Shown here: one piece after another, positions 26,355 to 49,981 of the stretch | How the letters are laid out: every line of letters begins with the position of its first letter | Position numbering within the stretch: the first letter of the stretch is position 1 | NCBI GenBank assembly: GCA_037576215.1 | Contig: JBANDB010000006.1 | Coordinates: forward strand, 5,952,001-6,016,000 | Reading direction: 5' to 3' | Length of the DNA stretch: 64,000 nucleotides | Source of the DNA: Armillaria gallica | Taxonomy: Eukaryota > Basidiomycota > Agaricomycetes > Agaricales > Physalacriaceae | Made by a program: the position numbers and the translations under genes | Notes under the pieces: generated by a model | Seen by the model: only the letters and a program-made list of their open reading frames with translations | The model's database searches: none | What the model was told of the DNA's origin: nothing

Positions 26355-26677
26355 CTACCACCCCATGCGCTCTTTCGTCCATCCCCAGATCTTTCCATTC
26401 TTATCGAGCGGGTTACACAGCCTCTCACCATGATCCAACCCGTCAATCCTCTTCAAATCCTCTTCATCCAAAGTGGGGAGCTAAAAAGAACGAGTCCAAT
26501 CAGAATTGATTTGCCAAAGAGAACCACGACTGCTGACGTTAATATTATCCTTCTGCCGCTGTTCGTTTACGCTCTTTGGTAAGATGATGATGTCTCCCAC
26601 AATGTTCCATGCGAGGATGACCTGCGTGGGTGATACACCGTGCTTTGCAGCGATTTCGTTGATGACTGGGTCTTCTC
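26355..26677 (-). pseudogene. 3' part of an aldo-keto reductase gene split by the 18.9-kb element
   Basis: Encodes the C-terminal part starting [18 protein letters not shown] and, after an in-phase intron (GTCAGC...TTTTTAG), ending GWTKERMGW-stop. The frame is intact. The upstream (N-terminal) part of the same gene lies at 45588-46768, same strand. Fused at the insertion point (one TC removed), the codons run AIR-EDPVIN, identical to the intact copy at 47832-49279. The C-terminal part forms the last strands and helices of the TIM barrel and contributes to NADPH binding (IILPKS). Confidence 0.92.
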
Positions 26678-26947
26678 TGTCGGAGATTTGGCACGACCCT
26701 TAAAATCTAGATCGATTTTTAAGGGCCGTCGATAAGATGAGATAAGATTTGGATCACCTTTATAAGCAGATTATCCGATAAAAATGATAAGATAAGATAA
26801 TATTCGGATTTTTTTCTCATGGGCGAAATTTTAAGATCGAGATAGTTTCATGTATTGTATATCAAGAAATAAAACTTTGTGAGTATATACAACGTATATA
26901 GGATATAAGTACAGATGGTATATTCAAATATTGACCGACGTCAAATC
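26678..26947. repeat. Left terminal region of the large element: TIR, hairpin and GATAAGAT repeats
   Basis: The TIR is followed by a palindrome (CCCTTAAAATC 26697-26707 / GATTTTTAAGGG 26714-26725). Then come several GATAAGAT/GATAAAA units (26730-26806). No gene. Such subterminal repeats are typical transposase-binding regions. Confidence 0.7.
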
Positions 26948-27446
26948 CTAAGGCGAGAACCTGCAAATTTTAATTAATTCGCATTCACGAACCAGAGAAA
27001 ACACGTACCAGCCACTGACGTACTGAATTCCGACGGCAGGTGCAGAGTCGACGAGGACGCTTCCCGGTACACGACGAACTACGCGTTCAGCTGAGCGACG
27101 GTGGACGAATTCCGCAATGCCGGTGCTCTGGGAGTAACGCAAGATCCCCAAGTATTGATTATACCCGAAGATTGCACCGATGCTGAAAGTAGCGCCTTCT
27201 ACAACTAAGTCACTGCGAACGGGTTCGTAAGTTTCTCACTGTCGAACGTTGAAGTGAAACTTACAGTAGAATACAGTCAATGTACTTAAACGCTCTACCA
27301 GGGCGTCCATACCATTCCTCGCGAGATACCCTACTGATGTCGTTGAGGGTACGTTCCAATGCCGCGTGTAGTTCTCTAGTTTCGTCCTCGCGATACAGAT
27401 AAAACGCCGTCTCCGTCGCGTCCGTGGTGAATATGTTGATTTTCAT
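26948..27446 (-). CDS. 132-residue protein of unknown function (element cargo)
   Basis: Three coding exons (27265-27446, 27009-27212, 26948-26960) with GT-AG introns of 52 and 48 nt and consistent phase. The protein starts MKINIFTTDATETAFYLY, continues WYGRPGRAFKYIDCIL and VVEGATFSIGAIFGYN, and ends VSGWFSP. The start codon sits directly after a splice acceptor (TTTATAG), so at least one non-coding 5' exon exists; donors at about 27499 and 27613 (GTAAGTA on the minus strand) suggest two or three leader introns. The fold looks alpha/beta. I do not recognise the family. It is transcribed toward the left end of the element. Confidence 0.6.
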
Positions 27447-27851
27447 CTATAAATATATGTAGGTCAGTGAAAATCAAGGACCAGCTCAAGAGTACTTACA
27501 GATGATTGGTTGTAGGAGCAGAGGAGAGCAGGGGAGCTGACTGAAAGGCTGTTGGTACTGACAGAACAATGAAGAGTATGTGAAGAAGCAGAGTTTGCTT
27601 AGGAATACTTACATTGTTGCTTCAGCTAGCTGGATGTGCTGGTAGAGTAGAGAAGAGAGTGGATGTTAAGAAGTGATGACGATGGCAGAGTGGATGAAAG
27701 AAGAAAGGTAAAAATGTTGAAAGTCACCTGACCATCGCAGGTAGATACATTGAGCCTCGCGGATAGCAGAACAAAGCGAAGGCAAGCCTGCTATCCGCCG
27801 TATGTTACAGACGCGTCATCGCATGCTTCTCCTCCCTACGCGCCTCTCCCG
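27447..27851. other. Divergent promoter and spliced 5' leader region
   Basis: Purine-rich on the plus strand. It carries splice-like signals (TACTTAC on the plus strand, that is GTAAGTA on the minus strand) for leader introns of the 132-aa gene, and the promoter of the plus-strand gene at 27852. Confidence 0.5.
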
Positions 27852-28643
27852 ATGACGACCAGGACGGTGAGCCCGACAGACTACAATCCTCGACCTGCCA
27901 AGCGTCAGCGTCGCGACAGCACTTCCAAGGTCGCCTTTTCTGTCGACGGCAATGACCTTGCTCCCTCCACGGCGCCGGGGTCTGTATGTCTCACCCCATT
28001 GCCCCCCTCTCTCCTGCTCGTTTCGCTTCCAGGCATTCTGATCCACCCACCGACGCACCGGTATCACGCTCAGTCGGTATGCCTATCTCTTCTTGCCCTT
28101 CGGAGGTATTTGAACCTACCCAATTTGACGCCGGAAGTGGAATGCAGAGCATGGACCGCGTTGGTGGAGGTTGGTATGCTTGTGATAGGAGGAGGCTTCA
28201 GTCAAAATGATGACCCTTTGTGGGCGAGAGGTATAAAAATCGAGGTATGACTTATGTTTCTTTCTTTCTGTTGAGCTAGCATGACTTTTTGTGTATCAGA
28301 TGGAGACGGCGGCGAATAAAGCAGTAAGTATCTGATTGCATGGATATTTCGCGTACTAAACTGCCCGCTTTCAGCTGAATATTGCTCCGGCCTCACGTAA
28401 CCTGCTTAACGGCACAAGTCTACCGATGAGTTTTGGACTGACATCCCAATCGGTACGGGGTCACTTCTCGCGGGTCTTGAATCCCATCCTCTGGGCACAG
28501 GAAACACGTTCAAACCTGGCGTAGGGGTGAAGATGTGTGTAAGGCCGGCGAGTGATTCGATAAATTCGAAGAAGCCGCTGGCTGCGGAGGTGGTGGAGAT
28601 GATATCGGAGGTGATGGATCCGCACCCTCCGATGCAGCCTTAG
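27852..28643 (+). CDS. 213-residue protein, possibly a captured and shortened host gene (Mau2/Scc4-like start?)
   Basis: Three exons (27852-28244, 28300-28323, 28419-28643) in consistent phase. The start is the first in-frame ATG (MTTRTVSPTDYNP). A nuclear-type basic stretch (RPAKRQRRDS) leads into LLLVSLPGILIHPPTH and LSLLALRRYLNLP, ECRAWTALVEVGM. From memory this resembles the N-terminus of basidiomycete cohesin-loading factor Mau2/Scc4, but the TPR body is absent: after ANKA the protein jumps to FWTDIPIGTGSLLAGLE and ends DPHPPMQP. This suggests a chimera or a transduplicated fragment carried by the element. The family hint is weak, the gene structure moderate. Confidence 0.45.
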
Positions 28644-28846
28644 CTTGTTCTTCGACGCCAGTTGGGGTATAAACTCTACATAGCCTTAAGTAAGTACGTG
28701 CGGGAATTAATGGGCTGATTGACCTTGAGCCGTCAAGTTGACTGTCAAATCGAGCTGTAGACGAGCCTACTGCCTAATCTAAGTAAGGATGTCAGATAGG
28801 TTAGCGGCGAAGGAAGTCTGGACCTACTCTCCAGCCAATAGCATCA
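28644..28846. other. Short spacer between convergent cargo genes
   Basis: No gene or repeat seen; it holds the 3' ends of the chimera gene and the transposase. Confidence 0.4.
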
Positions 28847-31800
28847 TTAAATGGTTGATTTTCCTACGTAATGGAGAGACTGCATCCTTAGAAACATATC
28901 TGCGTCAACCACATCAACTACCAGGTATTCCTTCACATTTTCATCTTCGGGATTGAAATCGGAATCTTCTATCAGTAAGGCACCCCTTATGACCGAATAT
29001 ATGGAAACTAAACGGGGTTCGCTCTTTTTCATGTCTGTTCTGACACGATAAAATCCTAGATCCTGATCCTTTTGTGCGCTATGTCCTTCCGTGGGTTGGT
29101 CGAATGGACGAATCAACATGAGGGGAAATGTCTTCTCGCGTACGGTGCATTCGAATACCATAACTAGCTGTGCAAACAGGGGGCCATCGACGGTGTCAAC
29201 GAGAACAAAGTCATAGCGAGGACGATGGTTGAAGCTGGGCGAACATCGCAGGATATCTATGGCGGTCTGCCAGTCAGCAAGACTGGGATAGTATGACTTT
29301 AGCATTCCATATAATGATATCTGTGATAACTGGCGTGAGACATGCTACACAATTCAAGAAGAAATACGAGGTACCTGATCGTTGAACGCGAAGCCCTCAA
29401 ATGCTACTGCAGTCCCATTAATCAAAGGAAGCTCCTCTGGATGACTCTTGAAATGTTTCGCCATGTATTTTGATAGGCGTTGTCGAAATTTAGAAAAGTC
29501 GCGATTATCCGCAGCTTTTGCTTCTACCTCTGTAATTGATAACCTGCCTCCTCCCTTTCCTCGACCGCCGTGCACTGAAGCAGCTGAAACGTAGTCCGGT
29601 TGACTATTGGCAGTTTCCGTCTCTCTCTCCGGCTGGTTGGAGTCGTCGATTTCATCGGTTTCCTTTTCCTCTGCAGATGTGGCCAGCCGTTCTTGCTGCG
29701 CATCAATCTGTTGACGAATGAATGACATAGCATTATACCATTGATCGATCCGAAGAATCTGAGCAAATACGACGTCAGCCAATTTAACAAACTGCAAGAG
29801 AAGTTGAACATTGACCTGTTTTTCAAAGTCCTTGAAATTGGTGCGACGTTGATAAGATTCTTTGAATGATCCATGCATACTTTCATTCGGTTTTGTATTG
29901 TAGTTAAGTGTGACACCTTTGGCTTCAATGTCATCGAAGAGATGTTTGTGCGAGTGGACTTTGGGAAAATCCCAGGTCTTGAACGTCAACTTCTTGGGTG
30001 GTTGTTTTCCAGCATCCAACGCAGCTTGCTTGATCTGCTCGTACTCTTCTCGAGAAGCTTTCTCGTATTCCTGGCATACAATGAGCTCAAGTTCTGAAAG
30101 CGGAGCTATAGGCATACCTTAATTAGGGCAGACAGTATTGGCAGCCTCGCTCGTCCAGCTTGGAGAGAGCTAGATGTATGAAGAGAAAAGCTAGCGTACA
30201 TATCCAACTCCATGTACACTCGTAAAGCGCGGAGAAGAATATATCCAATAGGATCTCTTTCTCTAGTGAGGATGTTATGAGCGACGAAAATCAGTTGCTA
30301 TGGATAAGGATTAGCTAATAAGGACAAGATTTTAAATCTGTAGATACCTTTGAAAGCATCTCATATTTCCGTCCATCCGTAAATGTAAGATGCATGAATC
30401 CCTGTTTAAAACGATACAAATCCTTCCAAGGAGGGAAAGCGCTCAATCTTGATTTAAGGATTAGTTAGTATTAAAGGAAAATTTCACGACAATTAGGTAG
30501 ACGTACTGTTCATCTGCTCGTTGGGCAAAAGAATGTGAGTGCTTCAACTTCTCAATTCTTCCAATAACTTCCTCCAGTAAGTGGTCTGCAAAAAGACCAT
30601 TATTGAAAGCATGCAATCGATCGAACGATAGAGCCCGATAGACATCACAATGACCAATGCTCCAAAAGACGTTCTAAGTCCCGTATTAATACATGGACAT
30701 TAAACTGGACGAAAAACCTACTTCTATAAACCGGAGACTGAACTGCTTAAGGAATGCATTTCGATCTGTAGCGCCAGATATTTCTTTAGCCTGTTCGAAT
30801 ATGTCTTGGGCCCAAGACGTAGTTCGAAGTCTATATGTCTCCTCCATCTCGAGCAGATGTCCTTCGGGGACGAGACATATATTGCAGGGAAATTTGGATC
30901 TGCTCCCCCGAATCAGAGACATCATACACCTGTTAGAAATATTAATCCTTGAAAGACACGTAAAGCAACGGCTTACTGCTCTTCATAATCTGCAGATAAA
31001 ATCATGATAGTAGGAAAGAGATACCAGGGTGCAACATCTGGATCGGAGGATTGCACCCAAGCCCCGATTTTTGACCTATCCTTGATGGACGATAGAATGA
31101 TCTCGAATGCTTTATGCCATACAGCTCTCTTGAAATCAGCATAGTACGTCTTATCGCGATGCTCAGACTCTTCGGGTACCTAGCAAAGACGATTTGAGTA
31201 AGGTGATCGTCTTCATCCCAATTAAAACATACGATAGGTAACCATCCGATAACACGTCCACCTCCAACACCTTGTCCATTACGAATATGAGCCGGCAGGT
31301 TTCCTAGTCTAACGATAACAGGATAACCCTGAACTGTGCCGAATGAAGAAAGCCGTGTTTTGTCTGCGTAAATGATGTAACATATAGGTTTTCCATTAAC
31401 TGGAAGAGCCGACTATTCCTTCAATCAGTGCCTTGTGATTTAAATATAGACAAGATAAAATACGTGCCTGCACCTCCCAAAAGGTGTTGCCCGTCCAAGG
31501 CTCAGTGTAGAATCGTTCGGATGTGCGGCCTTCGCATTTAAAAAGTCGTTGAGCATCCCAGACAATGTGGGGAGCAAGGACTGGATCCAGAAGAATGTCC
31601 AAAGTCCAGGACCACAGATCTCGGTGATATACCTCAAATTCGTAATCTTGGTTTTTCAATGGCACACTAAAGGTCGTCTTTGTAAACTATTTCAAAGGTC
31701 AATTTTCAAGCACGGATCAGATAGGAAAAATTCGAACCTGGGTGCGAAGATCGGCTGCTTTCTCCCACAAGGCGATTAACTCTCGGTGGTTTCGGAATGA

Positions 31801-32492
31801 AGGTAGCTCTCCTCCTCGTTGTACTATATTTTTCAGAAGGCCGTCAATTTCACCTTCATTTAAAGCAGCCTGTAGAATAAACTCCGCCAGCTCGAAGTCA
31901 ATTTTGGATTTAAATGGGTGCCAGGGCGAATCGTCAAAGTCAACGTTGGACTTCTCTTCCCGAGCTTGATACTCTTCCAGCAAATCTTCTCTTGAGTCTC
32001 GCCCGCTGGACGGGTGATACTCAGTGCGGATATAAGTGACATCAGGTCTTGGTTGGTCGGAGGTGGCCTGGATAGGCGGAGTCGTAGCCCCATCTTCCTC
32101 TGGAATGACTTGATCGTCTGAAATCGAATGTCATCAGCCGGCCAGACATGCTGCGGCAGAAAGGACAAACGACTTACCTATTCCGCCGTTTCTACGTTCA
32201 CGAAATCGTTCAAAGGAGTCTACCAAAGATGTTGTCGCTTCTTCTGGCTCCGGGGAGGGAATCGGTTCGGAAGGGGAATTGCGAGACCGTCGCCCTAGGA
32301 AGTGTCAGTATCTGAGACCTTCCGGACCATATTAGACCACTGACCAGGCATTTGGCCTCGGTGTTGTCTCTCATATGCAATCTTGCGCATGCGGTCCTCA
32401 TGCCTCTTAGAGCAAGCTATCTCATGGGTTGTATAGCCTCGAACGTTGTAAGGATCTCGGCAATAAGGGCAGATTTTCTCTTTATTTTGCAT
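28847..32492 (-). CDS. Plavaka-type DDE transposase (EnSpm/CACTA-related)
   Basis: Thirteen exons, all GT-AG and in phase, give 1,002 residues (exon limits on the minus strand: 32492-32345, 32294-32178, 32117-31738, 31686-31474, 31412-31233, 31179-30977, 30929-30722, 30673-30507, 30447-30348, 30297-30118, 30070-29816, 29758-29375, 29320-28847). The N-terminus has a C2H2-like finger (ICPYCRDPYNVRG, then HEIACSKRHED). Next comes WHPFKSKIDFELAEFI, then the core: YADKTRLS and PVIVRLGNLPAHIRNGQG, FDRLHAFNNGLFADH, and KPNESMHGSFKESYQRRTNF. Asp, Asp and Glu in these three blocks are the likely catalytic triad. The end (DWQTAIDILRCSP, LGFYRV, LVVDVVDADMFLR) is the family's usual C-terminal domain. 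No stop or frameshift was found, so the enzyme may be active. Confidence 0.9.
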
Positions 32493-32915
32493 GTTTGAAG
32501 AGCTATCGAGTTGATATCGCTCTAGGAGACTGTCAGGAAAAGTCGTCGACAATAGAGGCGGGATACAAATGGGAGTCCTTACCCCGGGAGAAGAGAAACG
32601 TGTAGGAGAGTGCAGAGTACAGCTGTCCCCTAGTAGCGGTGAGGAAGGAAAATAAGGAAGTGGCTACTTCGCCGCCGCCACAGGCTCACTCTTAAAAATA
32701 TCAAATATTTTGAAAATATTAGTGCGGTTATTCGAGTTGCTATGACGTCATCGCAAGAGGAAAATTCACTCAAAACCGGGCCTGACATCATAAAAGCTTT
32801 GCCATGGCTCAAAGAAGTTTTTATTGACTGACAAAATACAAACTTCGGTGATGGAAGTTAGAAAAAGTTGTTCAGCACCTGAAAAAAAGCCGCGTACCTC
32901 ATGAATATCAATGAT
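32493..32915. other. Leader/promoter of the transposase and 3' flank of the 715-aa gene
   Basis: A likely leader intron runs from about 32582 (GTAAGG on the minus strand) to 32524 (CTCCTAG). A/T-rich short palindromes lie at 32696-32722 (AAATATCAAATATTTTGAAAATATT). No other gene. Confidence 0.45.
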
Positions 32916-35113
32916 TTATTTTTCTCTTTCCAGCTCCTCCGGCTCGTTAAGCGGTGCACTCTGATGAGGAATACGAGGCAGTACTGGAGGCCGACCAAAG
33001 TGATCAAAGAATGTCTGAGCATAATGCTTTACCAAGGCTTTCTCAACCTTCAAAGACGCATTATCATCCGATGGATCTAAAAGACCCTTGGCCTCAAACA
33101 CCAGTGGTACCTCCCATTCCGACATAATTTTTCTGAAAGCTTCAAGGACAATACATCGTTCCTTCCAACTTGTCGAGTGAAAGCTGACCGAACCGACAGA
33201 ATGAGATGGCAATGGAACGAGGGATTCTCCCGGAAACAGCTTTAGTATTGCGTTCTGACGTTTGAGCTGGAAGTCGGTATCGTCAGAAACTAGGGAGCGT
33301 GTAAGATGTGCATCAATTGCTAGAAGCTCCAGCCGGAAGTTGAGTTCGCAAAGCTCCCAAATAAGGTAACGACCCCGGTTGACATCAAATGGCTCGTCTG
33401 TATGTGTTGTTGGGCTTCGTATATCTGGTCTGGGCATCTGAAGGGCAGCTCCCATCATGTCTAACATGGTGTCGTGAGCTTTGATAGTTTTAGTATGCTC
33501 TTTCTTGAAGGGCATAGCAAGTAGCTCTCTCCACACTTGCGGACGAACGGGCGAAGCATTTGAGGTCGACGAAGCAACACGATAAATGAGAGCATCTCGA
33601 TAATGCTCCCACTGGCGGAAGTAGGTGCTTTGCCGAGTAGTAGAAGCGTACACAAAGAGTCCGGGATCGGGGAAGGCATATCCCATATTGACGTTGTAGT
33701 CCTTCTTCTCGCCGTTTGTATCATGTCGGCTCTGGATGCGTCGAGCTTGAGCTTCGCGCCGCTGAAAACATTCTGAGTTCTGGTCAATTCTTTCGTTGGC
33801 ACCAGCCCACGCAGGTATAGCCGGTGGAGCGTAACTCCCAGACAAGTCTGCAAATTTATCTCTTGTACTTTGCAGATTTTCTGACCAAGTACAGATACGT
33901 GAGCCTTTGAAACAACAGTGTAGAAAAGTTTCCTTACGAGCCTTGCTTCTTTGTGATGATCCCTTGCCCAGAGGTCCAGACGCTCGGGCCTTGGATCTCT
34001 GGTTACGCACTGGAGCGCCTGAGGTTGAAGGAGGGACGGAAGGAGAAGGAAGTACAGACGTTGAGGGAATGGCAGAAGGGGTAGGAGAAGACACAGTGGA
34101 AAAAATGAAAGGGTTGCGATACGTATGAAAGATTCGCATGAAGCGATGCATGGCATCAAATTTTTTGGGGTGAGATGGGTCTCCGCTGAATACTACAGGA
34201 AACGAGGGCTGGGGAAGAGTTTTGTTTACACTGAAAACAGTTGGTTGTTCCGCTTTCAGTATGATTTGATTTGTGAACTGCTCGATTGGTCTGACAAGGT
34301 AGACCGGTATGCCAGCTTTCATGTGCTGTTCGGCAACATCCAGACTGAGGGTAAATACACCAATGAGACGATTGAAGTCAAAAGTTTCGTCGCGTTGAAC
34401 TTTTCCATTCATCACCGGCTGATGAATCTGCATGTAATCCAGCCCAGCAACGAGCTCCAGCCAGTATCGCTGCATTGCTGTCACCTGGACACGAATGCTC
34501 ATAGCGTCTGCCATCACTGACTCAGTTCGGTTGACCAAGGCTTCCAGACGAGTGCACCTGATACTGAGGAATTCTCGGAATTCGTCAGAAAACATTTTGG
34601 TATTCTGTATCCGAGAACATCGCCCTTTGATGTAATGCCATGCATGCCGGAATCGCTTATGGATAAAAGGGTGAAGTAAACCTATGTGCGACAGATACCC
34701 TGAGGAGAATACGATGTCGCTGTCAGCAACATCGTACCAAATTGTATCGAGCCACTGATAGTAAGGGTGGTACAAATCAGAAACTAGGGGTCGACGAGGA
34801 ATAGCAGGAAAATGACAGAATTTTTCCTCAAAGAACTGAGGAACACGAGTGGGGTCGTGGTCTCCAAATCGCCCGTCCTCATACAAATGGATTTCTCGTG
34901 AGTTCGGAGGGTACGGGATGAATTTGCTATTGGGAGTCGTGATGAAGATCTGATCCTCCTCGATATAGGTCCCAACACGACCATCGTTTACGCCTAACTG
35001 TCCTGATACGACTCGCATCAGCCTTGCATCAAAGGCGAATGAACGTAGTTACCTTTGTAATTTTGAGAGAACTTCGTGAGATCACCGAGTGTAAATTTTG
35101 TATTGCCTTGCAT
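32916..35113 (-). CDS. 715-residue protein of unknown function (element cargo)
   Basis: Exon 1 is 35053-35113 (MQGNTKFTLGDLTKFSQNY). A 50-nt intron (35003-35052) leads in phase to exon 2 (32916-35002), which reads GQLGVNDGRVGTYIEE. The first half is globular (PPNSREIHLYEDGRFGDHD, YHPYYQWLDTIWYDV, VYLVRPIEQFTNQIIL). The middle holds a low-complexity Ser/Pro/Thr linker (SSPTPSAIPSTSVLPSPS) and a basic stretch. The C-terminal third is again globular (WRELLAMPFKKEH, LIWELCELNFRLELLAID, FFDHFGRPP). From memory this type of protein recurs in Agaricomycete genomes without a known role; its presence inside a TIR-bounded element suggests that it is transposon cargo. No nuclease or polymerase motif is visible. 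Confidence 0.75.
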
Positions 35114-36376
35114 TAGGGTCGCTGTACCACATAGCAACATTAGCTTCAGTTCAAGTGTACTAGCGAGAACACAAACCCTCGAGTAGTACACAAACTTCAG
35201 ATCCTTCTTCGTTCTTTGGTAGGCAATAAGGTCGAATATAAGACGTTCTTGAGGTCCGAAAATTTATACGTCGCGTATAAATTTCCTCCGCACCCGCCAA
35301 TACACGTCTCGTATATTGGCTGTACAAAATACTCTCGTATTTTGCACTTGAAGTTTAGCTAGCGAATATTGCGATCAGGGCTAAAAACATTTTGTGAGAT
35401 CAGTAAGAGCAGAGCGCGACAGAAATGAACTTACATGACGAGCCGGGTAGCTGACAGAAGTTATCGTCGGAGCTAGCAGGTTGGATAGGGGATTGAACAA
35501 AAAGCTGACAATGAAACTTCAACTTTGCGATCGGACCGGACAGTCACGTGTCTTGCCTCGGCTTGTCCTCTACTACTACTACTACTACTATCCTCTCGTC
35601 TCAAATTCATCCCCGGCACTTAGTGTGTCCACATCAACGAGACGTTGATGCGGGAGGACCGTTTTGCGCGAAGCAGAATGGACTCAGGTTGTCTGACGTG
35701 ATGTCGGATAGCCCCACTACTTCATTCAATTCTGTCCTCAAGCCTCTGCCCCTGCCCCTGCCTCCGAGCAAACCCGGACTCATCCAAGATCTGAGCGCAT
35801 ACTTTCACCAGTCCTACCTCTTTTGAGGAAGCGGAGGTGCTTCAAGTTCCCTAACATTCGTGCATTGATATGCCTTTATCATGGTTTGCTTTACTGTGTA
35901 TCCCGGTATGTGCTTAAGCTTGAGTGTCAATATTAGTGGATTCTGATCATTAATTTGTATTCGTAAGGCCATAACATTCGTTTATACACCCACCTATGGA
36001 CGCATATGACGGCATACAAATGTTCAGTCAACAGCTAGGGGTTTCTTTATGTAGGGGGCGGCCGGAGGATCAGACAGTTAATTTCGAGAAGATATTCTCA
36101 TTGTACCGCATTCTCAGGTTGTAATGAGACTCGGAGAGTGACTCAGACCCAGTGAGACTCTGAATGTTTAGGCCGTAGGTCTTGGAGCAGGTCTCAAATC
36201 ACTCAGGGAGTGACTCGAGCGCCTTGAAACTCTTTGAGTTTCTGGCGGAGGATTCGATGACGTCGTAGCTGGTATCTGCGAGTTCAGAATACCGGGGATG
36301 GCGTCATACAGAGATTAAATAAAACTACAGTTGGCTCTCTCTCTCTCCTTCGTCTTCTCTCCTCTACCCATCCAAG
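35114..36376. promoter_or_regulatory. Divergent intergenic region between two cargo genes
   Basis: Separates the 715-aa gene (minus) from the 1,420-aa gene (plus). It holds three consecutive hairpins (35260-35344), a CTA trinucleotide run (35570-35590), a run of GAGACTC/GTGACTC-type repeats (36126-36240), and a CT-rich leader (36340-36365) directly before the plus gene. A plus-strand open stretch at 35548-35826 has no recognisable content. Confidence 0.5.
35260..35344. repeat. Three adjacent perfect hairpins with related loops
   Basis: Hairpin 1: AAATTTATACG (35260-35270), loop TCG, CGTATAAATTT (35274-35284). Hairpin 2: GCCAATA (35296-35302) and TATTGGC (35314-35320) around CACGTCTCGTA. Hairpin 3: CAAAATAC (35325-35332), loop TCTC, GTATTTTG (35337-35344). 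The arms differ but the centres share TAC..(G)TC.CGTA. They lie about 150-230 bp upstream of the minus-strand 715-aa gene. Confidence 0.85.
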
Positions 36377-39300
36377 ATGACTACAACCTCGAGCTTCCTG
36401 AGCAGTGATAGTGGTTCCATCGCTCACTCCACTCCCCGTATCATTCGTCGTCTACCTCAGAAGAGGACTGCTTTAGGAATAACCCCCGATCCAACCGCAC
36501 CACCTATTCTAGCCCATCGTCCACCTAGATTAATTCCCAGCCAGTGGACTAAGCTTGAGCCAGCAAATCGTAGCTCTCGATTTCCCGACGTCTACATTGC
36601 ACCGTCCCACTCCCAAGTACCCGCCGGTCACGGAAACATCTATGTCATTGTTGTTAGTACTGACTCGGAGGACCTTCATGAAATCTTCGCTCATGGGGCC
36701 AGTCTTTCGTCCTTCTGTACTTTGGAGGAGGCAGCTGCGAAAGGTTCGTTTGCTACAATTCCTCTGATTACCTTATATATCTAAGTTCGCGAACAGGCAT
36801 GCCTGCACTACGGCCTAGCCTCAACGACTTCCTTGTCTTTCGTGACAAGTACGGAAGAGAAGAGGATGGGGATGGCAAAGACGCAGTAAAATCTTGGAGC
36901 CGTGCGAAGTACGTCTATCTGTAGTTTCCGCTGAGTTTTTGACTGAGTTTGTTTTCAGGAAAGAATTTACGACACCAACTTTAGAGCATCTCCAGAAATT
37001 GCGGGATGATATCTACGGCGAAAAAGAACTCATGTCAGATTCGAAAGCTGTTGCAATCGACGGGAAATTTTGCGGAGGCATTGCTATTGAGCGAACGTTT
37101 CGTTCTCGATTCCATGTCAGAAACGCCCAACGTGCATACCATCTCACTACAAGCTTTCAGGAGGCACGAGGATTGGAGGCGCCTCACCTGTCAAACAAAG
37201 CAGACACCGTAAAGGAGAAGGACCATGAGAATGTGCTGCGTCAGCGGGTTAATGAGGTGCAATTCGTTGTGGTTATTCTCGTGATTTTTCTCATCAGTAA
37301 TTTTCAGCTTGTCATTCGTACAGCGAATGAAGGATTGCTCAAAGGAGCACCAGATGTACCCGGAATCATGGCGAAGTGGGCGGATCTCGTCAATTTTCCT
37401 AAGACTGGAGGTTACGATCGCTATGAGGGCTTCAGCAGCTCTGTTAATAATTGTTGGCCAGCGTCACAGATGAATTTAGCTTCTGCCCGCAGAGGTTAGT
37501 TCAACAACTATCATGAGTTATACCTTGTCCAATGCCAATCTAGGTGAAACTCATGCAGAAGAGACCGTTGAAAGCTCTCCGTCGGCGGGTGAAGGTACAG
37601 TTACATTTGCCAATAAAGCTAGCGGCTATCTAATTATTTTGTAGATGAAAACTCATCTGAAGACGCTCGGGGAGGCCTTAAGAAAGACATAGGAAAATAC
37701 GGCGGAAATCATAGCGATGGCGGTGATCATACTGTCGTTCCTACAGCAATGACCACTCTCACGCGACCTCATCCTGATGTTCCAGAAGAGTGCTTCTGCT
37801 TGATGGAATTTGGTATCGTTTGGGTACTTGAAGAGTTCTGTACTCTGTACTTTTCAGGCTTGCATATGCACGGCGGAGGGTTGGCTCAATACGGCCCTCT
37901 CCACACCGACGATTCTATCTATACTCGCGTGACCGTAATCCTCTATCCTCCTCAAGTCATTTTGAACGGAGAATCTGCACTCGCTTTTGCTGCCTTGCCA
38001 TACCCTCCAGATCCCTGTCGGGTCTGTCAAAAGCGGTCTAGAAAAGAACGCCGAGTGTCCAGAGACGTGGAGAATCTTGGCCGTAATGACGACGAGGACG
38101 AAGACGAAGACGAAGAAGAGGATCGTGCAGAGAACTGCAATGATGCTGCCAAAGCGCCTAAGAAGCACCATCCTTTAAAGACAACTCTTTTAAAGTTACC
38201 GATGGAGTGGCGCCGACGTGGGTATGTCATCTCTTCAATATGACATTCAATGTACAACGCTGATTCTCTCCTCAGTATACATCAATTATCTCTCGGAAGA
38301 AACTACACCGAACAAGCAACATACGTCAGCGACGGTGGCAGCTTTCTTGCGCCAAAAGACCACTTCAACCACAGCATTCGCTCTCTTCTTCAATGGATCA
38401 ATGGCATAATTCAACAATTTCCCCCTCATTATTTTGTACGCTTCGACAAAGAGCTCCTCCTCAGTGCGTTCTCCATGGAGCTTGAAGGTGTACGTTTGGC
38501 TGCAGAACCTTGGGATCTAGGTCCGGGATGGACTGGGAACGACGTTCGGATTGGATCAAAGTCTGATGTCTCCATCGAATCAATGACGCCCCAGCAACTT
38601 GCTCAACGATGGAATACTAATGACTGTGCCAGTTCAGCTCCATATGGCAACGCCAACATTGAAAAGGTTGAGGAAGCATTCTATACGTTGGCTGAAGAGA
38701 TGGGTCGAACAATTCCTCTTAATGTTGGCGCTCTCCGTAATATGGAACGACCTTTAGGAGGACGACCTCATATTGCAGACCCTCAGGGTAAACGAAGTAA
38801 GTTGAATGCATCCTCCTTAGATATTGTATTGACTCTCACCAACAGACTACGTTCTGCAGACCCGGAACAATAGTGGAGACAAGGATCCGTCGGCGATGAA
38901 AAGAAGTGAGCAGATTCTTCAAACGGCCAAATAATATACTAATCTTTGTTAGAGCGCAAGCCAGACGAGCAGTGCGATGATCTTCCATCCTGTAAACGAC
39001 AAAAGATAGCGGAGAAACAGATTGTAGTGGCTAAAGATCGTAAGCTCGTATCTCAAGCCTCTGGCACCGGCTCATAGTATATCAGCAATACATGTTTTTA
39101 ATCAGCAAAATTTGGAAGCGATACTTGCGAAGGTAGAAGCTCCTGCTAGCGTCTTGATCAATTGCCGGCTCGATGAAGATTCCAATGTCACCTTCATCAA
39201 AGATTTGCTCCACATCGCGGAGCAAGAAGGATCATGCTTCAAGCCGATTCAGAAGCTCTTATCTCATCGGACGAACAGTAGCCATCAACGCGCTTTTGCT

Positions 39301-41196
39301 ACTCGAACAAAAATTGTTTACCGCCAGCAAGAGCAACTAGCTAAGATGGCTCTATGGGGCTGCATAGATCGATTGTTGAAGGAAGCTTGGGAATCTCATG
39401 ACGACTTCTACAACCCTCTATGCAATCTTTTTCGTCGCGTCTCTTCACTGATAACGATCAATCAAGGCCAAAGCCTCTGTGCGACGGAGTATCTTTACGA
39501 CTGGCCTACAGATTGTATGGCCAATTTCCGGCCCCGGATCCCCCGTGTTGATCCAACTAGCCAGGCTATTATCGACGTCTGCCGAAATCTGATGTCGCAA
39601 TGGCTATGTTTGGACTCTGAGGCGACATACAAAAGCGCACAGGTCGTGCAGTTCTTTGTTGACCGGCTAGGTGCGGAGGCTACTTTGCTTGATCTTCGAA
39701 AGTTTGATGTATCAACTCCAACCAAAATGGCGGATCTGCAAGCCAAACTTGAGAATGCAATCATAATTAATCAAGACAGTATCGGGAGGACAATGCTACG
39801 ACAGATTGCCAGTGTCTCAGGCGCACCAGACCAAGCCGAACTGACATCAATTCTGGTGTGTATTTATCCGTTTTCATGTGCTAGGACCATTGACATACCT
39901 TAATGTTTCAGTCTAAAACACCTCGGTGCGATGCATTAGATTATGGGACATCGTTACCGTTCTTCCTCCGCTCCGAAGGATCGTCAATACCAGGATCTGC
40001 CTTCTCTGGTGTCCTACCATCAGACTCTTTCGAGAGCTCTTTCCAAGGCCCGTCATCGCCGCTATGTTCTTCCCGATCCCTATCTTCAAATACTTCTATG
40101 GTTGGAACTCACGGTGATGTAAAGCGGCTTCAACTAATGTTTGAACTATTATATCCTCTACTGGACGGAGTGTCGGAGCCTCATCCACCCTTCAATGAAA
40201 CGCCGGAGCTTACCGCTGCCGTTCGCAACTTCATCGACTACGTTAATGTTGACATGGATAGGCTGAGCATCTTTCGAGATCTAGCCAGCAGCCGTCTTCA
40301 ATCGTTACGACCTGGCGGCCCGTGGGATCCAGATAACTTGCGTACACGTGCTGGGTTTTTCAGTGCGCTTGTATGCCGAGGAATCATTCATCGCACCGCA
40401 TATATAAAGGACCCCAATAACCCTGTTTATTTCTCCGATGAAGATGCCTGGAACATAATTCGATACGGCCCGCAACAACAGCAAGGAGAAAAATATTTCT
40501 GTATTAAAAAAGCCTACAGCGATGCTCCCAGTGCTAAACGAACATCGGCCAACGCGTCACAGTACTGGAAAGCAGCTTCTGATTTCCGATACAACTGGTT
40601 CCTGACCGCCGAGAAACCGACACCATTCCTCGAGCTCTGGAATCACTTCCGAAACACCAAATTCCAAGACCCCGACCAGGAACATCGTTGGGTGAAGGTA
40701 TTTCCTGAGATCGGAAATTTACAGGCGTATTTGTTAGCTTCTGACTACGCAATTGCTGGCTTAGCGACAACTCCAACACCTGCGGAAATGGCAGTAGTCC
40801 TTCAGACAATCGATGCTGGAGGTATGAAGGGCCTACGTCTTCTAAATCTACCCTGTTCGAGTCTCGAGGAAGTCACATCATCTTTCCAATATGTTTACGA
40901 ATACCTCTCGCAGGTGATACCAACAGCACGGCAACAACAGATGAAGTTCAACATATTTGTCGTTGAACACTCTCTGTGCAAGTATTCCTCGTCTAAGCGA
41001 CTGAATAACGATAAATTCCATGCTATAGAGAATCTTCTGGTAGAGTTGTCACCGGTATGTGTCTACAATCAAAATCTCAGTGGTGCACTTACTGAACATT
41101 GGTCAGAACGAGGGTCCGTTGTCACTCTCTTCAAACTTTGACTCATCCAGTCGAATGAGGAGCGCTGCTGATCGAAATTTCGGGCCGCGGTTTTGA
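36377..41196 (+). CDS. 1,420-residue, 12-exon protein of unknown function (element cargo)
   Basis: Exons 36377-36743, 36797-36908, 36959-37256, 37308-37494, 37544-37594, 37645-38221, 38276-38796, 38846-38905, 38953-39039, 39086-39855, 39912-41054 and 41107-41196 join in phase. Notable segments: CGGIAIERTFRSRFHVRN, FSGLHMHGGGLAQYG followed by VTVILYPPQVILNGES, an acidic run near residue 490 (NDDEDEDEDEEEDRAEN), then MELEGVRLAAEPWDLGPGW, and in the C-terminal third FLELWNHFRNTKF, LLASDYAIAGLA and FNIFVVEHSLCKY. These blocks recall, from memory, recurrent Agaricomycete proteins without a known function. The HMHGG block resembles part of a jelly-roll fold but lacks a clear 2-oxoglutarate dioxygenase triad. 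The unbroken frame over 12 exons argues that it is maintained. Confidence 0.8.
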
Positions 41197-41938
41197 GAAA
41201 ACAGAGGGTGCCCACGAGGCAAGAACACCTGGTTGTTGACGTGGTTAACCCCAAATATGTTTCGATGAATCTTTTACGTAGGGTGAATTTTGAGGGTAAA
41301 AATGCTTTAATTTCGTTCAATTCAGATTTTATTTCACCCTTCTTACGATTGATGCGCTCGACGAAACTCACGAACAATCAAGAATCTCAGAAGCTTAACG
41401 TTTAAATACGATCGCCAACCATTGCAGTAGTCATCAGAAGCCGTCGAAATTGTTTGGTTGCTCATCGTCTGTCACGATTATCGGGTTCGAGAGTTCTGAA
41501 TGAGACAGCCGTGTGAATGAGGGTACTATCAGTTCGTAACTCAAAGGTACCGTTAAAGCGTAATGCTTACCCTGAAAGATGATGTTTTCACTTAGGGTCT
41601 AGAAAGTCAGTAGAAGACAAGGATCGGACAGATAAACATAATGGAGACGGGTAAATATATTAGAGTGTCTGATCCTTCAGTCGGGCGTCGGTGGCGGTCG
41701 CACATTGCATGACGACTTTAAACACGTGGATCAGAAAGGTAATGTCATGTGATAAGCACATTCACGCGATGTCATTGCTTCGTTGCCATCCCCGATTTTG
41801 TCTTCAATGTCGCATCTTTCACGCCCTGAATTTCTGCTATACCACTTGACACCGCACTTATACAATCCCAAAAGGTTGCCCGCTAAAGCTTTAAAAAAGC
41901 TTAACCTACCCTTGCGACGTTGCAAGTTTTTCTCCCGC
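41197..41938. other. Spacer between cargo genes
   Basis: No separate gene. An in-frame ATG at 41807 could extend the next protein by 44 basic, non-conserved-looking residues; 41807-41938 is more likely leader. Confidence 0.4.
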
Positions 41939-42550
41939 ATGCCCTCTCCAGCTTCGTCCCGTAGCTCAACCCTCTATAACGGTTCTGGGCAGTCCTCTCC
42001 AGGACAACACTCATCTGGTTATTCGTCTGGCTCAGATATGCACATTGATTCGCCGCCTACAGCTCTTCGTGCCGGGATCGCTCCCCCCGGACCCTCCGGC
42101 AGACCTTCCACCCCTCCACGAACTGCGCCATCGGTTCAACTACACTTCGAGAGGAGAGACGGTTCCCCCCCACCTGCTGATCCAAGTGATCTCCTGTCCG
42201 CCCTGCCCATTGGCAGGGACCTCGGTGCCTCCAGTGCCGCGTAAGTATCTGTTCTTTCAATAAATGTTATCTATCTAATCATCCATTTAGCCCTTCTCCT
42301 GCGTCGGCTACTACTCCCGTCCTTCCTCCCACTCCTGCTGCTGCGTTTGAGCCTGCACTGGATCCTGAGACGTCATTGGTAGTGAAATTAATCTCTTTTA
42401 CTTGTCAGAGTCTTACTTTTTTGTTCGCAGATGGCCGAAATGGTTATTTTAGGAGTTATCCAGGGTTTGTCCCCGTACTTAAACCGTATGATTGCTTTAC
42501 TCGTGAGCATTCAGAAGGATTTGGCCGAGACAAAGGCCATGAGAAAGTAA
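41939..42550 (+). CDS. 169-residue Ser/Pro-rich protein (element cargo)
   Basis: Three exons (41939-42240, 42291-42378, 42431-42550) in phase. The first two thirds are low-complexity, rich in Ser, Pro, Gly and Thr (SGQSSPGQHSSGYSSGSD, PGPSGRPSTPPRTAPS). The last exon encodes a short amphipathic helix (MAEMVILGVIQGLSPYL, IQKDLAETKAMRK). It resembles the N-terminal low-complexity parts often attached to the coiled-coil protein encoded next, so it may be a shortened relative or partner. Function unknown. Confidence 0.55.
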
Positions 42551-42853
42551 CCTGTTCATTGTTTTATTTTTCCAGTTGTAGTTCTGCGCATTAAGTGATG
42601 TACAGTCAGAAGTCAATGGGAGTTTTCTGTAATATTTGTAACATCTTTTACTCTTTTCCTTTTGCAACCTCTGCCTTATTTAAATAGGTGTCTTATTTAA
42701 CTGGGAGTCTTATTTAAATCATCCTAACAATGACATGTTTTACGGCGCCTTTAGGCTTTTATTAATGTTCCTGCAATTTCTCCGACAATTTTTTGTTCGC
42801 CTCATCAACTCACCTTTTCTTGCAACACCTACCTTTCATTCGCATTTCTTACT

Positions 42854-44826
42854 ATGTCGAACTCTTCCAGCAACTCGTCGGCTCCTCAGAATGTCTCGAT
42901 GGAGGTCTTGCTTCAGGTATGACTTACAAATCTGTGTTCGTTGCGTCAGAATGTGCTTTACTGATATCACCGTCTCATGATTCAGGCCATACAGGCTCTC
43001 GAGCTCAAAAATCAAGCCTTAGCTATGGAAAATAGGTCCCTCAAGGTGACTCAGCCAGCACCGGCTCGCTCCAAATCGGCGTCTCGAGGCCCCAGCTCCT
43101 CAGCTCCCTCGGTTCAAGGTGGATCCTCTCCGACAGTATCAGATGCAGAAGAAAATGAAAAGAGCCTTCTCTCGGCTGAAGACACGAAGAAACTTCAGCA
43201 CTGTGCAAAGTCTCTTACCGTGTTCTGTAACATATTTTGGGAGAAGAAACATGTTTTCGGTTATTCACGGGAAAAAGCCGCTGAAGAACTGGCTCGTGTT
43301 CGTGAGGAACTCGATCGTCTCAATCAGATGGATGACAATAAAAGGGAGGCTATGGGAACCGCCTTCAAAACCCAAAAGCGACAGGCGGAGGAACGAATTT
43401 CTCTCCTGCGGATCGTCGAGGCTCTTTACGAGTCTGTTCCTGCAAAATTCCATGAAATGGTTGAGTACGATTATCAAGAAGTAAGAGATACGGTACGTTT
43501 AATTCTGGAAGTGCATTGTTGTAAAATATTAACGCGATGTCAGATGAAAGCGGCAGCAAAGTCAGCAAGGGCGAACCTCGTTTACTATGCAAAACGCTCA
43601 GCAACCGATATCTTCAACGATATCCCTATCCCTTATGCCACCTTCGGCTCCAAATACAATCGCGTCGGCGACGAGCTCTGCTTGCGCCTTTTAGGATATG
43701 ACAAGAAGAAGCAGCGATATGCGCAGTGCCCCGAGATTCTCTATCCCGTTGGCCAAGGGGGCAAGGCCGATTCCAATGTTTTCCAAGCTCCGGCCTTGAT
43801 CAAGGTATGATAATAGTCTCGTTATACTAGTACATACATCAATAATGTGTTCTAGCTTCTCAGTGTCACTTTATATGGCCAGTCATCTCTCCAATCCAAT
43901 AAGACGACGAAGGCTACCAATGGGGACCTCTGGGAAGTAACCTCTATCTCAGCTGGCGCCATTGCTTGCACGGCTACTGTGGTGAGCTCCCATCTCTCAG
44001 GTAGCACCTGGCAGCACTTACTGACATCTGTGTCTAGGTGCGATATTTACTGTCCCATGACACTAGCTTTACAACGCGAGGCGATAAAACTCACATCCCA
44101 TATGAGAAAGACTGCGAATTTTATATACGGATGATCGAATCGACTCTCACCTTCCGATCAACCATCAAGACGCTTGAGTATTTTAACCAAAATCTCTTTT
44201 CGGCTAAGGGGCGTAACTTGGGTTTCATGGCTGATGCTGGAGAGGAGTCAGATCATTCGGATGAAGACGATATAATGCGTGCTCTGAGGCGACCAGAGCT
44301 CGATCGTGAAACCGAGGTGAACACCTCTCTTGACGAGGAGAATTTGTCAGCCTTGACATTGATGCCATTGGCCACGCTGATGCCACTGCCTCGGGCCGAA
44401 GACACTGCACTCCCTGTTTCCTCTGAGCCCACCTATGTGGATGTATCTGACAATGAACCGTCTGCTGTTCAAAACAGCGAAGTCGATCAGGCTCCTGGTG
44501 GTGGGGTCTCAGTTGTCTCTGCAGGCCCGCCTGCTCAAGAGACCATTACCAAACCCACCAGAGGTCGAGGTCGAGGCAGCAAGAAACCTACTTCTGGGCG
44601 AGGCAAGGTGAATCGAGGCGGCGCTAAAAGTCGTGGTACGGGAGCATCTGTCAGAGCGCCCGGTGATAGTGCTGCTACTGCGCCAAAAGCCCTGGGTGGC
44701 CATCAGCTTCGTGCTAGAGGTGGCAATAAACAGAATGTCGAGCATTCCGGTTCTCTCGCAGACAACTTGGATTTGGATGAAAGCATTGAGGAGGATTTTG
44801 AGTATAGCGCAGCCAACATCCATTAG
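42854..44826 (+). CDS. 581-residue coiled-coil protein of a recurrent basidiomycete family (element cargo)
   Basis: Five exons (42854-42916, 42986-43492, 43544-43804, 43856-43981, 44038-44826), all in phase. The order is: a leucine-containing helix (LQAIQALELKNQALAMENR), a Ser/Pro linker, a coiled-coil (EELARVREELDRLNQMDD), then a conserved core with NLVYYAKRSATDIFNDIP, NGDLWEVTSISAGAIAC and VRYLLSHDTSFTTRG, where the last block is the most typical. The tail is acidic then Arg/Gly-rich (TRGRGRGSKKPTSGRG). It resembles an uncharacterised family common near basidiomycete transposons (perhaps the one catalogued as DUF6698; not checked). The RG-rich tail suggests nucleic-acid binding. The frame is intact. 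Confidence 0.75.
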
Positions 44827-45587
44827 TATAAATAGCTTGTTGAGACATTTGTAGTACAGCTTAATATGATATCATTGTGATCAAGTCCGTAACCGTCTCA
44901 AATCTGTGAGTTGAAGGACTCAAAATGAAAAGAATTGACGTTGTCAGTCATAGCTACATTTGTATCATAATAACCCAATGGACATATATTTATAAGGCCT
45001 CTTAGTGTATTGGTTATATCATGTGTGTATATTTGTATCATTATTGTATTTGTTCGCTGGTTCGAACCTCAGTCCTAACATTATTTCTTTCTCCTTGTTT
45101 GCTTACGTAATCAGTAATGAAATGTCCTGTTGACTCAGCAATATTACTGACCCTGGGTCTAGACTGAGTCGAGATCCAAACTCGCAAGTTGCCGAACATT
45201 TTGTCTTCCTAAAAAACCTCTTTCCGAGGATTAAAATGTGTTAAAATTTCTCTTCCGGCGAGGTGGTGCGGCTATTAAAATACCCAAAAAGGGCCAGCTC
45301 ATCGAAAATAATGTCCTAAAATTGACCCTTTTAAGGCCTCGTCCCCTCTGTAATAATCGATTAAATGCTCGATTGGAAATATTTCAATAGTGATTTAAAA
45401 ACCTATTCCTATAGGGGTATAGTCGGTCTTTTATTGCTCTTTTATGTTCTCGAAGTGATATCATCGTGCGATTAAAATCCCGGACTCTTTTATCAAAATG
45501 TCATTTATTGTACCTATTCCAATTTTGGTATTATGACGATTTTATTCGCTAAAAATCCCAAAAAAGGCCGTTGCACAATGTCCGACA
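44827..45587. repeat. Right terminal region of the large element
   Basis: A/T-rich, with repeated ATTAAAAT cores (45230-45480) and a 19-bp unit present twice with three mismatches (45277-45295 and 45551-45569, AAAAT.CCCAAAAA.GGCC). It ends with the TIR TTGCACAATGTCCGACA. No gene. Confidence 0.65.
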
Positions 45588-46768
45588 TCGGATGGCGTTT
45601 TTGTTGCCTGCGTGGAGGGAGGAATCTGATGAGAGGACTCAATGCAACGCAATGGCGTGCTCACCTCCGGGAGAATACGCCTCGGTGGCGATACCCTTCT
45701 TCTTGTGGTATGCAATGAGATCATTCTGTGCGAGGTAGGGATGTCGCCTGAAAAGGTCCTCCTTAAAACTTCCTAGATGATAATCGCGTTCATACATACT
45801 CGACCTGGTTTACTGCCGGAACGACTGTAGCCGTTTGGAGGAGCTCTTCAAGACTTCGAGTGTCACTGTTAGTACGGAGACACAGGCACATGACAGAAAC
45901 AACACACGTCTTGATAGAGAAATTGCTGACTCCGATAGCCTTGGCCCTCCCACTGGCGTATATTTTCTCAATTTCGGCATAAGACTCGTTGAAAGTAGGA
46001 GAATCAAGTGTGACCATAGAACCGTCGGGCCCGAGAGGAAAAGCCATCCACGTGTCTTGAAGAGACGTTATGATTAGGCCAAGAATGGAAGGCGGTCTAC
46101 CTGACTTGCCTTGTTGATAAGGGATGGTCATGGGCTGATGCATCAGGTACTGTCAAGGTACTCAGCCAATCTGTATTCTCTCAGAGCAAACAAGACCTAC
46201 CAGGTCCACGTAGTCTAGCCCCAGGTTCTTGAGACTCAAGTCGAACGATTCAGCGACACGATCTTGGCAAGTGAATCTAAGGATCGGAGCTCAATGGAGG
46301 GCCGGTTTCAAGAAAAGGGCAATGGCGCGCACGGCAGTTTGGTCGTGATGAAGAATTCCTCGCGAGGAATACCAGATTCTCTGATAGCCTCACCGACGAC
46401 TTTCTCCGTACCTGTTGGTTATGATTGTTCAACCTTTGTAAAAAAAACCATTGATGGAACTTGGATCGCAGACCATAAACCTGGGCGGTGTCGATGTGCC
46501 TATACCCCGCCTTGGTAGTAAACGTTTCAGTCGACAAGTCCCAGATTGTAAAAAAGCTGGGTATACTACTCACCTGAATCGCTGTCAAGATCCATTTCTT
46601 AGCCGGATCACAGCCTTCAGCTGCGAACGGGCTAGGAGCGGCACCAGCACCTAGACACAGAACGAGTGTGATATTGCGCAATTATCGTCGCGGCGCACGG
46701 AGGGAATTACCTATGAGTGGTATCTTCGTACCGTTGTTCAGCTCGACCTGGGGGATCGTTGGAGACAT
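45588..46768 (-). pseudogene. 5' part of the aldo-keto reductase gene split by the 18.9-kb element
   Basis: Start ATG 46768 ([17 protein letters not shown]). All introns are recognisable and in phase. The protein carries [13 protein letters not shown] (catalytic Asp and Tyr), FITTKLP (Lys), YLMHQPM (His), GVSNFSIKT and [17 protein letters not shown], then stops at AGNKNAIR where the element begins. The remaining codons are at 26355-26677. The AKR family reduces carbonyls with NADPH in the cytosol. Apart from the insertion no lesion was found. Confidence 0.9.
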
Positions 46769-47831
46769 CGAAGTCGATTGAGAGGTTCTGAGAAGGTCTG
46801 CCCTATATACGGAACCTACGGTTAACCGGCACGGGTCAAACGACAGTTTGTTCACAGCATCAGGTTCCTTTGTAGTCAGCAGATAGCCCTCGATCGCCGA
46901 TGGAAAAGGACATTGTCGTGCTGAAGAATAAGTACTCCATGTGTAGAGAGAGATCTTTGAGAAAAAAATATAAGGATTTACCAGAGCGGGGTGAGGTCCA
47001 CTGGTTAGCATCAAGGAACCGCTATGGTGATGCGCCTACGAAACGAGATGCCGAAAGACCATCAATCGGAGCTGACAACTTGGTGAGATTGAAATTCCGG
47101 GTTCCCTCAAGTATTTTCCCTGCCGAAAGCGATCCGGACTAAGTAAATGCACCCATCATCTCGAAATGACCGATATGTCCAAGAGTCTCGAGTCGGCAGT
47201 TATTGGCGGCCGTTTACTGATAGTCTCCGAGTCATGTATACTAGAGTGCTTCTTTGACATGCTTAGCTGTAATTCATAACCACCATCGATTTTCACGGTT
47301 TGCTCTCTTGGCCTAAATTCTCGTCTCGCCTCTTCAGATTTGAATAGCCTCTCCGTGTGCTGCAAGACGCCTGATTCGAAACTTTGTTGGCTGTCCTCGC
47401 CAGGAACCCGGGCCCGGATTTCGAGAGGAGAGGGTGGTTGGTAATGAAAAGGAATGACCGAGAAGTATTTGTATGTTTTCCTTGTGGTAGAATCATTCGG
47501 TGGCCACTTGACATCTCTATAACAAGAGCTACACGTAAAAGTTCGGATAAAGTTCGAGCAATTGTGGGGTGGCTAACTACCTGTGTTCCGACTAGGGGCT
47601 GCCTTACCTTTCAACATCAGCGCTTTCCCCACACTGCAATCCAACCTGGAGGCCAATGGTGTTGGTACCGGCACAAGATCCGAAACATGGCATGGCGAAC
47701 CGTGTGCTTTAGCCACGAAGCTCCATACCTTTGTGATCACACTATTGAGTGACTCGCACGGAGTAGAGACTCTTCGTGGGCTACACTGGAGAAAGAATAC
47801 ATTGTTTTATAACTACCTTTTACGAGCAAGA
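46769..47831. other. AKR-to-AKR spacer with an SDR 3'-end relic
   Basis: 47415-47503 closely resembles the last codons and 3' flank of the SDR gene (25984-26080: CGGATTTCGAGAGGAG, GACCGAGAA.T.TTTGTATG), on the same strand. It is what remains of another SDR copy between the two AKR genes. No complete gene is present. Confidence 0.65.
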
Positions 47832-49279: not shown

Positions 49280-49981
49280 CGAAGTGGTTTGAGTGTTCTG
49301 AGAAGTCCGCCCGCAGTTTAATCGACATCTTGTTCACGGCATCAGGGTCCTTTGTAGTCAGCAGAGAACCCCCGATTCCCGATGGAACAGGAAATTGTCG
49401 TGCCGAATAAGTGCTCCATGTGTAGAGGGCGATCTTGGAGAGGGGAACCCATGCATTATGGGAGCAGGGTCAGGTCATTGGTTCGCGTCAAGGAAATGTC
49501 GTGGTTGCAAAAGTACAGTGTTCAATGCGCTTACATAAGATGCCGAAAGACGTCACTAATCGGAGTTGACGTTGAACGTTGAATTGGGAAAGCTGAGATT
49601 GAAATGCTAGCCTGCCGAAAGTCATCCCGACCAAACACATCCCGCCATCTCGAAATGTCCGCTACGACTATGTCCAAGAGGCCACTAGCGCAGCCTGAAA
49701 CCATTTCGCTCGAGACCAACTCCTTTATACCCAATTTATCGGAAGGTGCGACTGTAAGGACCCCTCGGCTTTGCCAATAAAGGGTATCCCGACACATTTT
49801 ACGGTGTACACAAACTGGATCAAATTCTCATTGAACAAGAGAGCTCTTTACCATCTATAACGGCATATCCGAATCGTCGATCAATCGGATTGACCGGAAC
49901 GAGGTATTCGGCATAAAAGACGCGCGTCCTAAGTTTGCTGTCCTTCCGGGCATACCTTCCTCCTCCTCCTTCAATATTACC
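49280..49981. other. Divergent promoter region of AKR and SDR copy 2
   Basis: No gene. It is partly similar to the sequence upstream of the split AKR (46769-47130; for example CATCAGG.TCCTTTGTAGTCAGCAG), which supports tandem duplication. Confidence 0.45.

Follow-up and report, generated by a model that had tools for sequence, protein, structure and literature searches.

The 64,000-nucleotide stretch of the Armillaria gallica genome analysed here (the window; C6:5952001-6016000, on a 6.07-Mb contig of an 86.0-Mb assembly in 28 contigs) holds what the assembled sequence presents as a complete PlavakaA-like DNA transposon of 18,910 bp, at window positions 26678-45587, within an aldo-keto reductase (AKR) gene. 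We consider it very likely that an autonomous DNA transposon of PlavakaA type, which moves by cut and paste, is related to EnSpm/CACTA elements and is equipped with a conserved set of four genes (called G1 to G4 below), inserted here, probably recently. Inverted ends, a 2-bp target duplication, an empty site in a paralogue, collinear relatives sharing the same ends, and selection on the genes are all observed. The element is new through its conserved accessory gene set; it is not a new kind of transposon.

The element starts with TGTCGGA and ends with TCCGACA, which gives seven perfect inverted bases (11 in a relative on contig C15). The left terminal inverted repeat, beginning with TGTCGGAGATTTGG, was placed at 26678-26699 on the plus strand, and the right one, closing with TCCGACA, at 45566-45587 on the minus strand; the dinucleotide TC occurs on both sides, at 26676-26677 and 45588-45589. 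An uninterrupted matching site, TCTTCTCGGATGG, is present in an AKR paralogue at 48144-48156 (minus strand). After removal of the element and one TC, the joined flanks and the paralogue (47.8-49.5 kb) share 1,445 identical bases among 1,671 aligned, the alignment is free of gaps at the junction, and the AKR exons remain open across it. Junctions and empty site were judged from the assembled sequence alone, and on that basis the insertion of a Plavaka-type DNA transposon into the AKR gene is real. Thus, the central claim of the original prediction, an 18.9-kb Plavaka-type transposon splitting an AKR gene whose two halves fit together, is borne out. The possibility it had named against itself, that the region is an assembly joint, we regard as extremely improbable, and likewise a segmental duplication: the 2-bp duplication is precise, removal of the element restores the AKR sequence exactly, the paralogue provides an empty site, and the termini are shared with independent copies.

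The interrupted gene lies on the minus strand, with its 3' part at 26355-26677 and its 5' part at 45588-46768 in the coordinates of the original prediction; exons of the 5' part align to the paralogue. Parts of each half, and of the paralogue too, match PF00248, and only the match at 26484-26699 (E 2.3e-6) lies above the Pfam cut-off, that at 45790-46143 in the 5' part (E 7e-4) falling below it. Positions 45588-49290 hold a tandem pair of AKR paralogues, 86% identical over the aligned bases, so that loss of the split copy may be tolerated.

Searching the genome with the ends and with the whole element revealed its relatives. The right terminus recurs at C11:118679, in a copy 95% identical, and the left one in a relative at C14:1589219. 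Four further giant elements have both ends: C15:1352714-1373067 (20,354 bp, flanked by AA/AA), C9:193835-214481 (20,647 bp, AG/AG, with one change in the left end), and two on contig C13, namely C13a (2336176-2364233; 28,058 bp, with unequal flanks, TT and AA) and C13b (2565315-2600079; 34,765 bp, CA/CA). Of two Plavaka elements of smaller size, the one on C2 is flanked by AA/AA and the one on C7 by TT/TT. Flanking dinucleotides therefore match in six of the seven elements with both ends recognised, for which the probability by chance is 4e-7. All five complete giants, this element included (18.9-34.8 kb), share these ends and, between them, the gene order G1, G2, G3, G4. The elements on C15 and C9 and C13a are mutually 94-96% alike, and C13b is 83-84% similar to these three.

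The gene set was derived by comparing the element with its relatives, using tblastn and a short script for spliced genes, and its exon borders are predictions. G1, the Plavaka transposase gene, is modelled at 28847-32663 on the minus strand, with a first exon possibly reaching 32791; its product matches PF18759 with E 1.4e-45 over profile positions 1-323 of 325. A transposase of 1,002 residues had been proposed; the Plavaka transposase is indeed there, but our models give 1,070 (comparative) and 1,098 (hand-merged) residues. G2 (32916-35018, minus strand), recognised as a conserved open frame to which upstream exons may have to be added, would encode a protein of about 700 residues; the 41 homologues found bear names from Armillaria, Desarmillaria, Laccaria, Hebeloma, Panaeolus, Marasmius, Steccherinum, Leucocoprinus and Athelia, among others. 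The comparative model of G3 (36377-41141, plus strand) predicts about 1,420 residues with an HxD...GLHxHG centre, and at the sensitivity of the search used its seven homologues are confined to Armillaria or Desarmillaria. The model of G4 (42977-44826, plus strand) predicts a 580-residue protein consisting of a DUF6698 domain (PF20414, E 8.7e-10) and an RG-rich tail, and each of its eight homologues is named Armillaria. When the four models were scanned against Pfam with E values of up to 1 allowed, only PF18759, PF20414 and one weak unrelated match came up, hence no family for G2 or G3. In A. luteobubalina, homologues of G2, G3 and G4 are all listed with a contig of 312,308 bp, those of G3 and G4 under consecutive locus tags, and A. 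mellea shows the same listing pattern with a contig of 2,427,087 bp; judging by these listings, the gene set is probably carried by other Armillaria species as well.

The original prediction had counted seven genes between the ends, a transposase and six further cargo genes, and had proposed that the cargo might be passengers or else an accessory module of giant Plavaka elements. The module itself is upheld, in reduced form: four genes recur in all five giants, and the other three do not, having no conserved counterpart in the relatives and consisting in part of captured host sequence. A true seven-gene cargo of passengers would account for the open frames at 27.7-28.3 kb and 41.8-42.2 kb, but we consider it improbable, as conservation in the relatives is limited to four genes, 27837-28387 derives from part of a host gene, and a genome search that skips simple repeats found nothing similar to 41.1-42.4 kb at any other place.

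That fragment (plus strand) is 88% identical over 551 bp to C16:635434-635980, where the reading frame adjoining the matched part contains a cohesin-loading factor domain (PF10345, E 9.2e-16). It is the first of a series, at 27837-28835, that matches four other loci of the genome: 28395-28562 (plus strand) resembles C1:2650702-2650869 at 91% identity, the 53 bp at 28568-28620 (minus strand) are 92% identical to a reading frame on C8 in which weak TPR/STI1 matches stay below cut-off, and 28657-28835 (plus strand) resembles C6:1307451-1307648 at 76%. None of these pieces has a match in the C15, C9, C13a or C13b elements, and the 1,668 bp that include the captured pieces here correspond to just 282 bp in the C14 relative. 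It would appear that the left arm acquired host fragments within the lineage of this element; the donor gene is the longer one, which suggests copying from host to element. Pack-type elements likewise pick up fragments of host genes. The interval between G3 and G4 is 1.8 kb here (41142-42976), compared with about 0.35 kb between the aligned parts in the C15 relative, from which this stretch is largely absent.

Association of the companions with Plavaka extends beyond the giants. Merging a G4 protein search with a PF20414 profile search gave 46 DUF6698-type loci, and association was defined as lying within 15 kb; only the best candidates were scored, and the locus counts are therefore lower bounds. 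A Plavaka locus (any of 74) was found near 35 of the 46, while random placement produced on average 1.2 and at most 5 such pairs in 2,000 trials. Profile matches alone gave a similar picture, with 15 of 24 PF20414 loci close to a PF18759 locus. Helitrons, used as a control for clustering of transposons, showed no excess (4 of 144 loci near Plavaka, 3.7 expected). Seen from the other side, 35 of the 74 Plavaka loci have a DUF6698-type gene nearby, and 16 of 28 loci from the G1 search have a G2 relative (0.46 expected). G3 was found at nine loci, five of them the complete giants; two more belong with these by gene content (C11:386 kb, with all four genes, and one on C19, with G2 and G3), and two distant relatives on C20 and C3 lie away from G1, G2 and G4 matches. 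These data support a conserved accessory module, and because the companions recur together in other giant copies, they seem to be functional components of the element and not passengers picked up at random.

Comparison with the four giant relatives gave low ratios of nonsynonymous to synonymous substitution (dN/dS), 0.13-0.17 for G1, 0.18-0.19 for G2 and 0.14-0.16 for G3, with synonymous sites near saturation; in G4 they are saturated. The ratio of observed to expected CpG dinucleotides is 0.96 in the element and 0.98-1.00 in the window flanks, whereas it is 0.64 in the C15 relative, 0.57 in that on C9, and 0.63 and 0.42 in C13a and C13b, the last two values coming from incomplete element sequence. 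In the part matched by the nearest copy, on C11, the ratio is 0.16 in that copy and 0.86 here; 108 transitions fall at CpGs intact in this element and 5 at CpGs intact in the C11 copy, the remaining differences being 91 other transitions and 23 transversions. Such erosion looks as would be expected from cytosine methylation. Since its CpG content is normal while the relatives have lost theirs, this copy is probably young and its insertion recent, with which the open AKR exons agree. Loss of CpG with gain of TpG and CpA is strong in copies on C9, C13, C14, C15 and C11, and a 40-kb stretch of C14 has a CpG ratio of 0.22. Hypermutation was not detected in Agaricomycotina according to a report cited in PMC12730594.

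Several observations weigh against an intact, recently inserted unit with its own gene set. The flanks of C13a do not match, and elements on C1 and C20 have the left end, no convincing right end and unequal candidate flanks. Stop codons are present in all gene copies of the relatives except one (4-11 per copy in G1, 0-5 in G2, 1-2 in G3, 1-4 in G4), so that either the relatives are partly decayed or the exon borders of the models are imperfect. The nearest copy differs at 114 non-CpG positions in about 2.57 kb; the lineage is thus older, not brand new, although the insertion looks young. Moreover, 11 of the 46 DUF6698-type loci have no Plavaka or G1 match within 15 kb, the counted C13a pair may owe its Plavaka match to a second locus that lies just beyond the ends of the element, and no G1 match was found within the same distance of 31 of the 47 G2 loci. 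The last count, together with the two distant G3 relatives away from Plavaka, would suit a scheme of nesting, with G2, G3 and G4 as transposons in their own right or as host genes that happen to be located in Plavaka elements. This we hold to be slightly less probable even than the seven-gene cargo, in view of the constant gene order in the giants, the proximity of DUF6698-type genes, not shared by Helitrons, to Plavaka, and the low dN/dS values. A single transposon with four genes of its own remains the reading we prefer.

Further traces of the family were noted. C13a (28 kb) and C13b (35 kb) contain extra DNA inside or beside G3, perhaps nested insertions. On C11, the copy most similar to the right arm lies in two pieces, C11:118267-118679 and C11:132509-135722, in opposite orientation and about 14 kb apart, with a Helitron gene between them. 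The 11-base end TGTCGGAGATT occurs 69 times genome-wide, against 8 occurrences of a control with reversed letters; 11 of the 69 are within 15 kb of a G1-search locus, and many may therefore be short non-autonomous elements. At two smaller Plavaka loci, C1:6236703-6246613 and C15:425240-433220 (the latter judged after flipping), the G1-search matches are oriented oppositely to those of the giants relative to G2 and G4, hinting that the transposase gene was inverted in one lineage.

Starships, giant fungal elements that likewise hold several genes, move by a tyrosine recombinase (DUF3435) and carry variable cargo. No tyrosine-recombinase captain appeared in the Pfam scan of the four gene models; here mobility would depend on a Plavaka transposase instead, and the cargo is a conserved set of genes. 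Plant En/Spm (CACTA) elements encode a transposase and a second, DNA-binding accessory protein. The combination of a transposase with putative accessory proteins recalls En/Spm, and the capture of host fragments recalls Pack-type elements, but the accessory proteins here are unrelated to that of En/Spm in name, and their function is putative.

Plavaka elements have been divided into PlavakaA, with TGT..ACA termini and a 2-bp duplication, and PlavakaB, with CATCA..TGATG termini (Kojima 2025, PMC12730594). By its termini, its duplication and its PF18759 domain the element agrees with PlavakaA as delimited there (PMC12730594). In addition, the C(2)C and H(3-4)H motifs of the CMCT clade can be read by eye in the comparative G1 model as CNIC and HSHKH. 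The element is thus best described as PlavakaA-like. It departs from PlavakaA as described in its giant size and its conserved four-gene set, which includes DUF6698 and two proteins without a family name (PMC12730594). PlavakaB, considered as an alternative, requires CATCA..TGATG, and the ends found are TGTCGGA..TCCGACA. All TET-bearing Plavaka elements are reported to be PlavakaB; these and Kyakuja are fungal DNA transposons of large size whose additional gene is proposed to counteract silencing (PMC12730594). The element resembles them in size and in having an extra gene, and it differs from PlavakaB in its ends; a TET/JBP nature of G3 is hypothetical. In Marasmius oreades, Plavaka elements are abundant and the transposon library reaches about 42 kb (PMC8290104, PMC9674265), hence large elements in mushrooms are not new. 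A four-gene Plavaka module was not found in the passages covered from the open literature on Plavaka, a search that did not extend to Repbase, supplements or subscription papers, and the literature library used gave no papers on DUF6698.

In G3, every row of two alignments, one of 6 and one of 7 rows, keeps HxD and GLHxHG; both alignments left out the homologues P0004 (HSN) and P0002 (site absent). Distant relatives at C20:779472-783642 and C3:5346997-5347248 (about 27-36% identity) keep HxD and GLHxHGG. However, several relatives lack an arginine further downstream, searches of Pfam and PDB profiles gave no relevant match, TET/JBP included, and a structure model reached a confidence score (pLDDT) of 30, which is unusable. 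The motif pattern is compatible with an Fe(II)/2-oxoglutarate oxygenase, a reading that may be correct with a rather small probability. Slightly more doubtful still is the wider proposal that G3 represents an unrecognised class of transposon-borne Fe(II)/2-oxoglutarate DNA dioxygenase, the giant PlavakaA elements' own anti-silencing enzyme beside the module of DUF6698 and G2.

How such a unit might operate can be outlined. By analogy with its family, the transposase would recognise and cut TGTCGGAGATT-type ends and excise the element; insertion with a 2-bp stagger would follow, as the family and the duplications suggest. Co-transmission and selection point to G4 and G2 as candidate factors of transposition or its regulation, which might work like the second, DNA-binding protein of En/Spm; the RG-rich tail predicted for G4 would suit nucleic-acid binding. 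G3, nearly confined to the giant lineage, might counter silencing, possibly as an Fe(II)/2-oxoglutarate oxygenase. If that were true, it could allow an active lineage to retain its CpGs although the genome erodes those of transposon copies; older G3-carrying copies are eroded, so that any protection would last only until a copy is silenced.

These results suggest a likely role for DUF6698, so far a Pfam domain of unknown function, as an accessory factor in Plavaka transposition, and they define a lineage of giant, multi-gene Plavaka elements whose gene set can be tested. They also show fragments of host genes captured inside a Plavaka element. The occurrence of a CpG-intact copy beside eroded relatives in the same genome lets one ask which gene helps a large fungal transposon to escape silencing.

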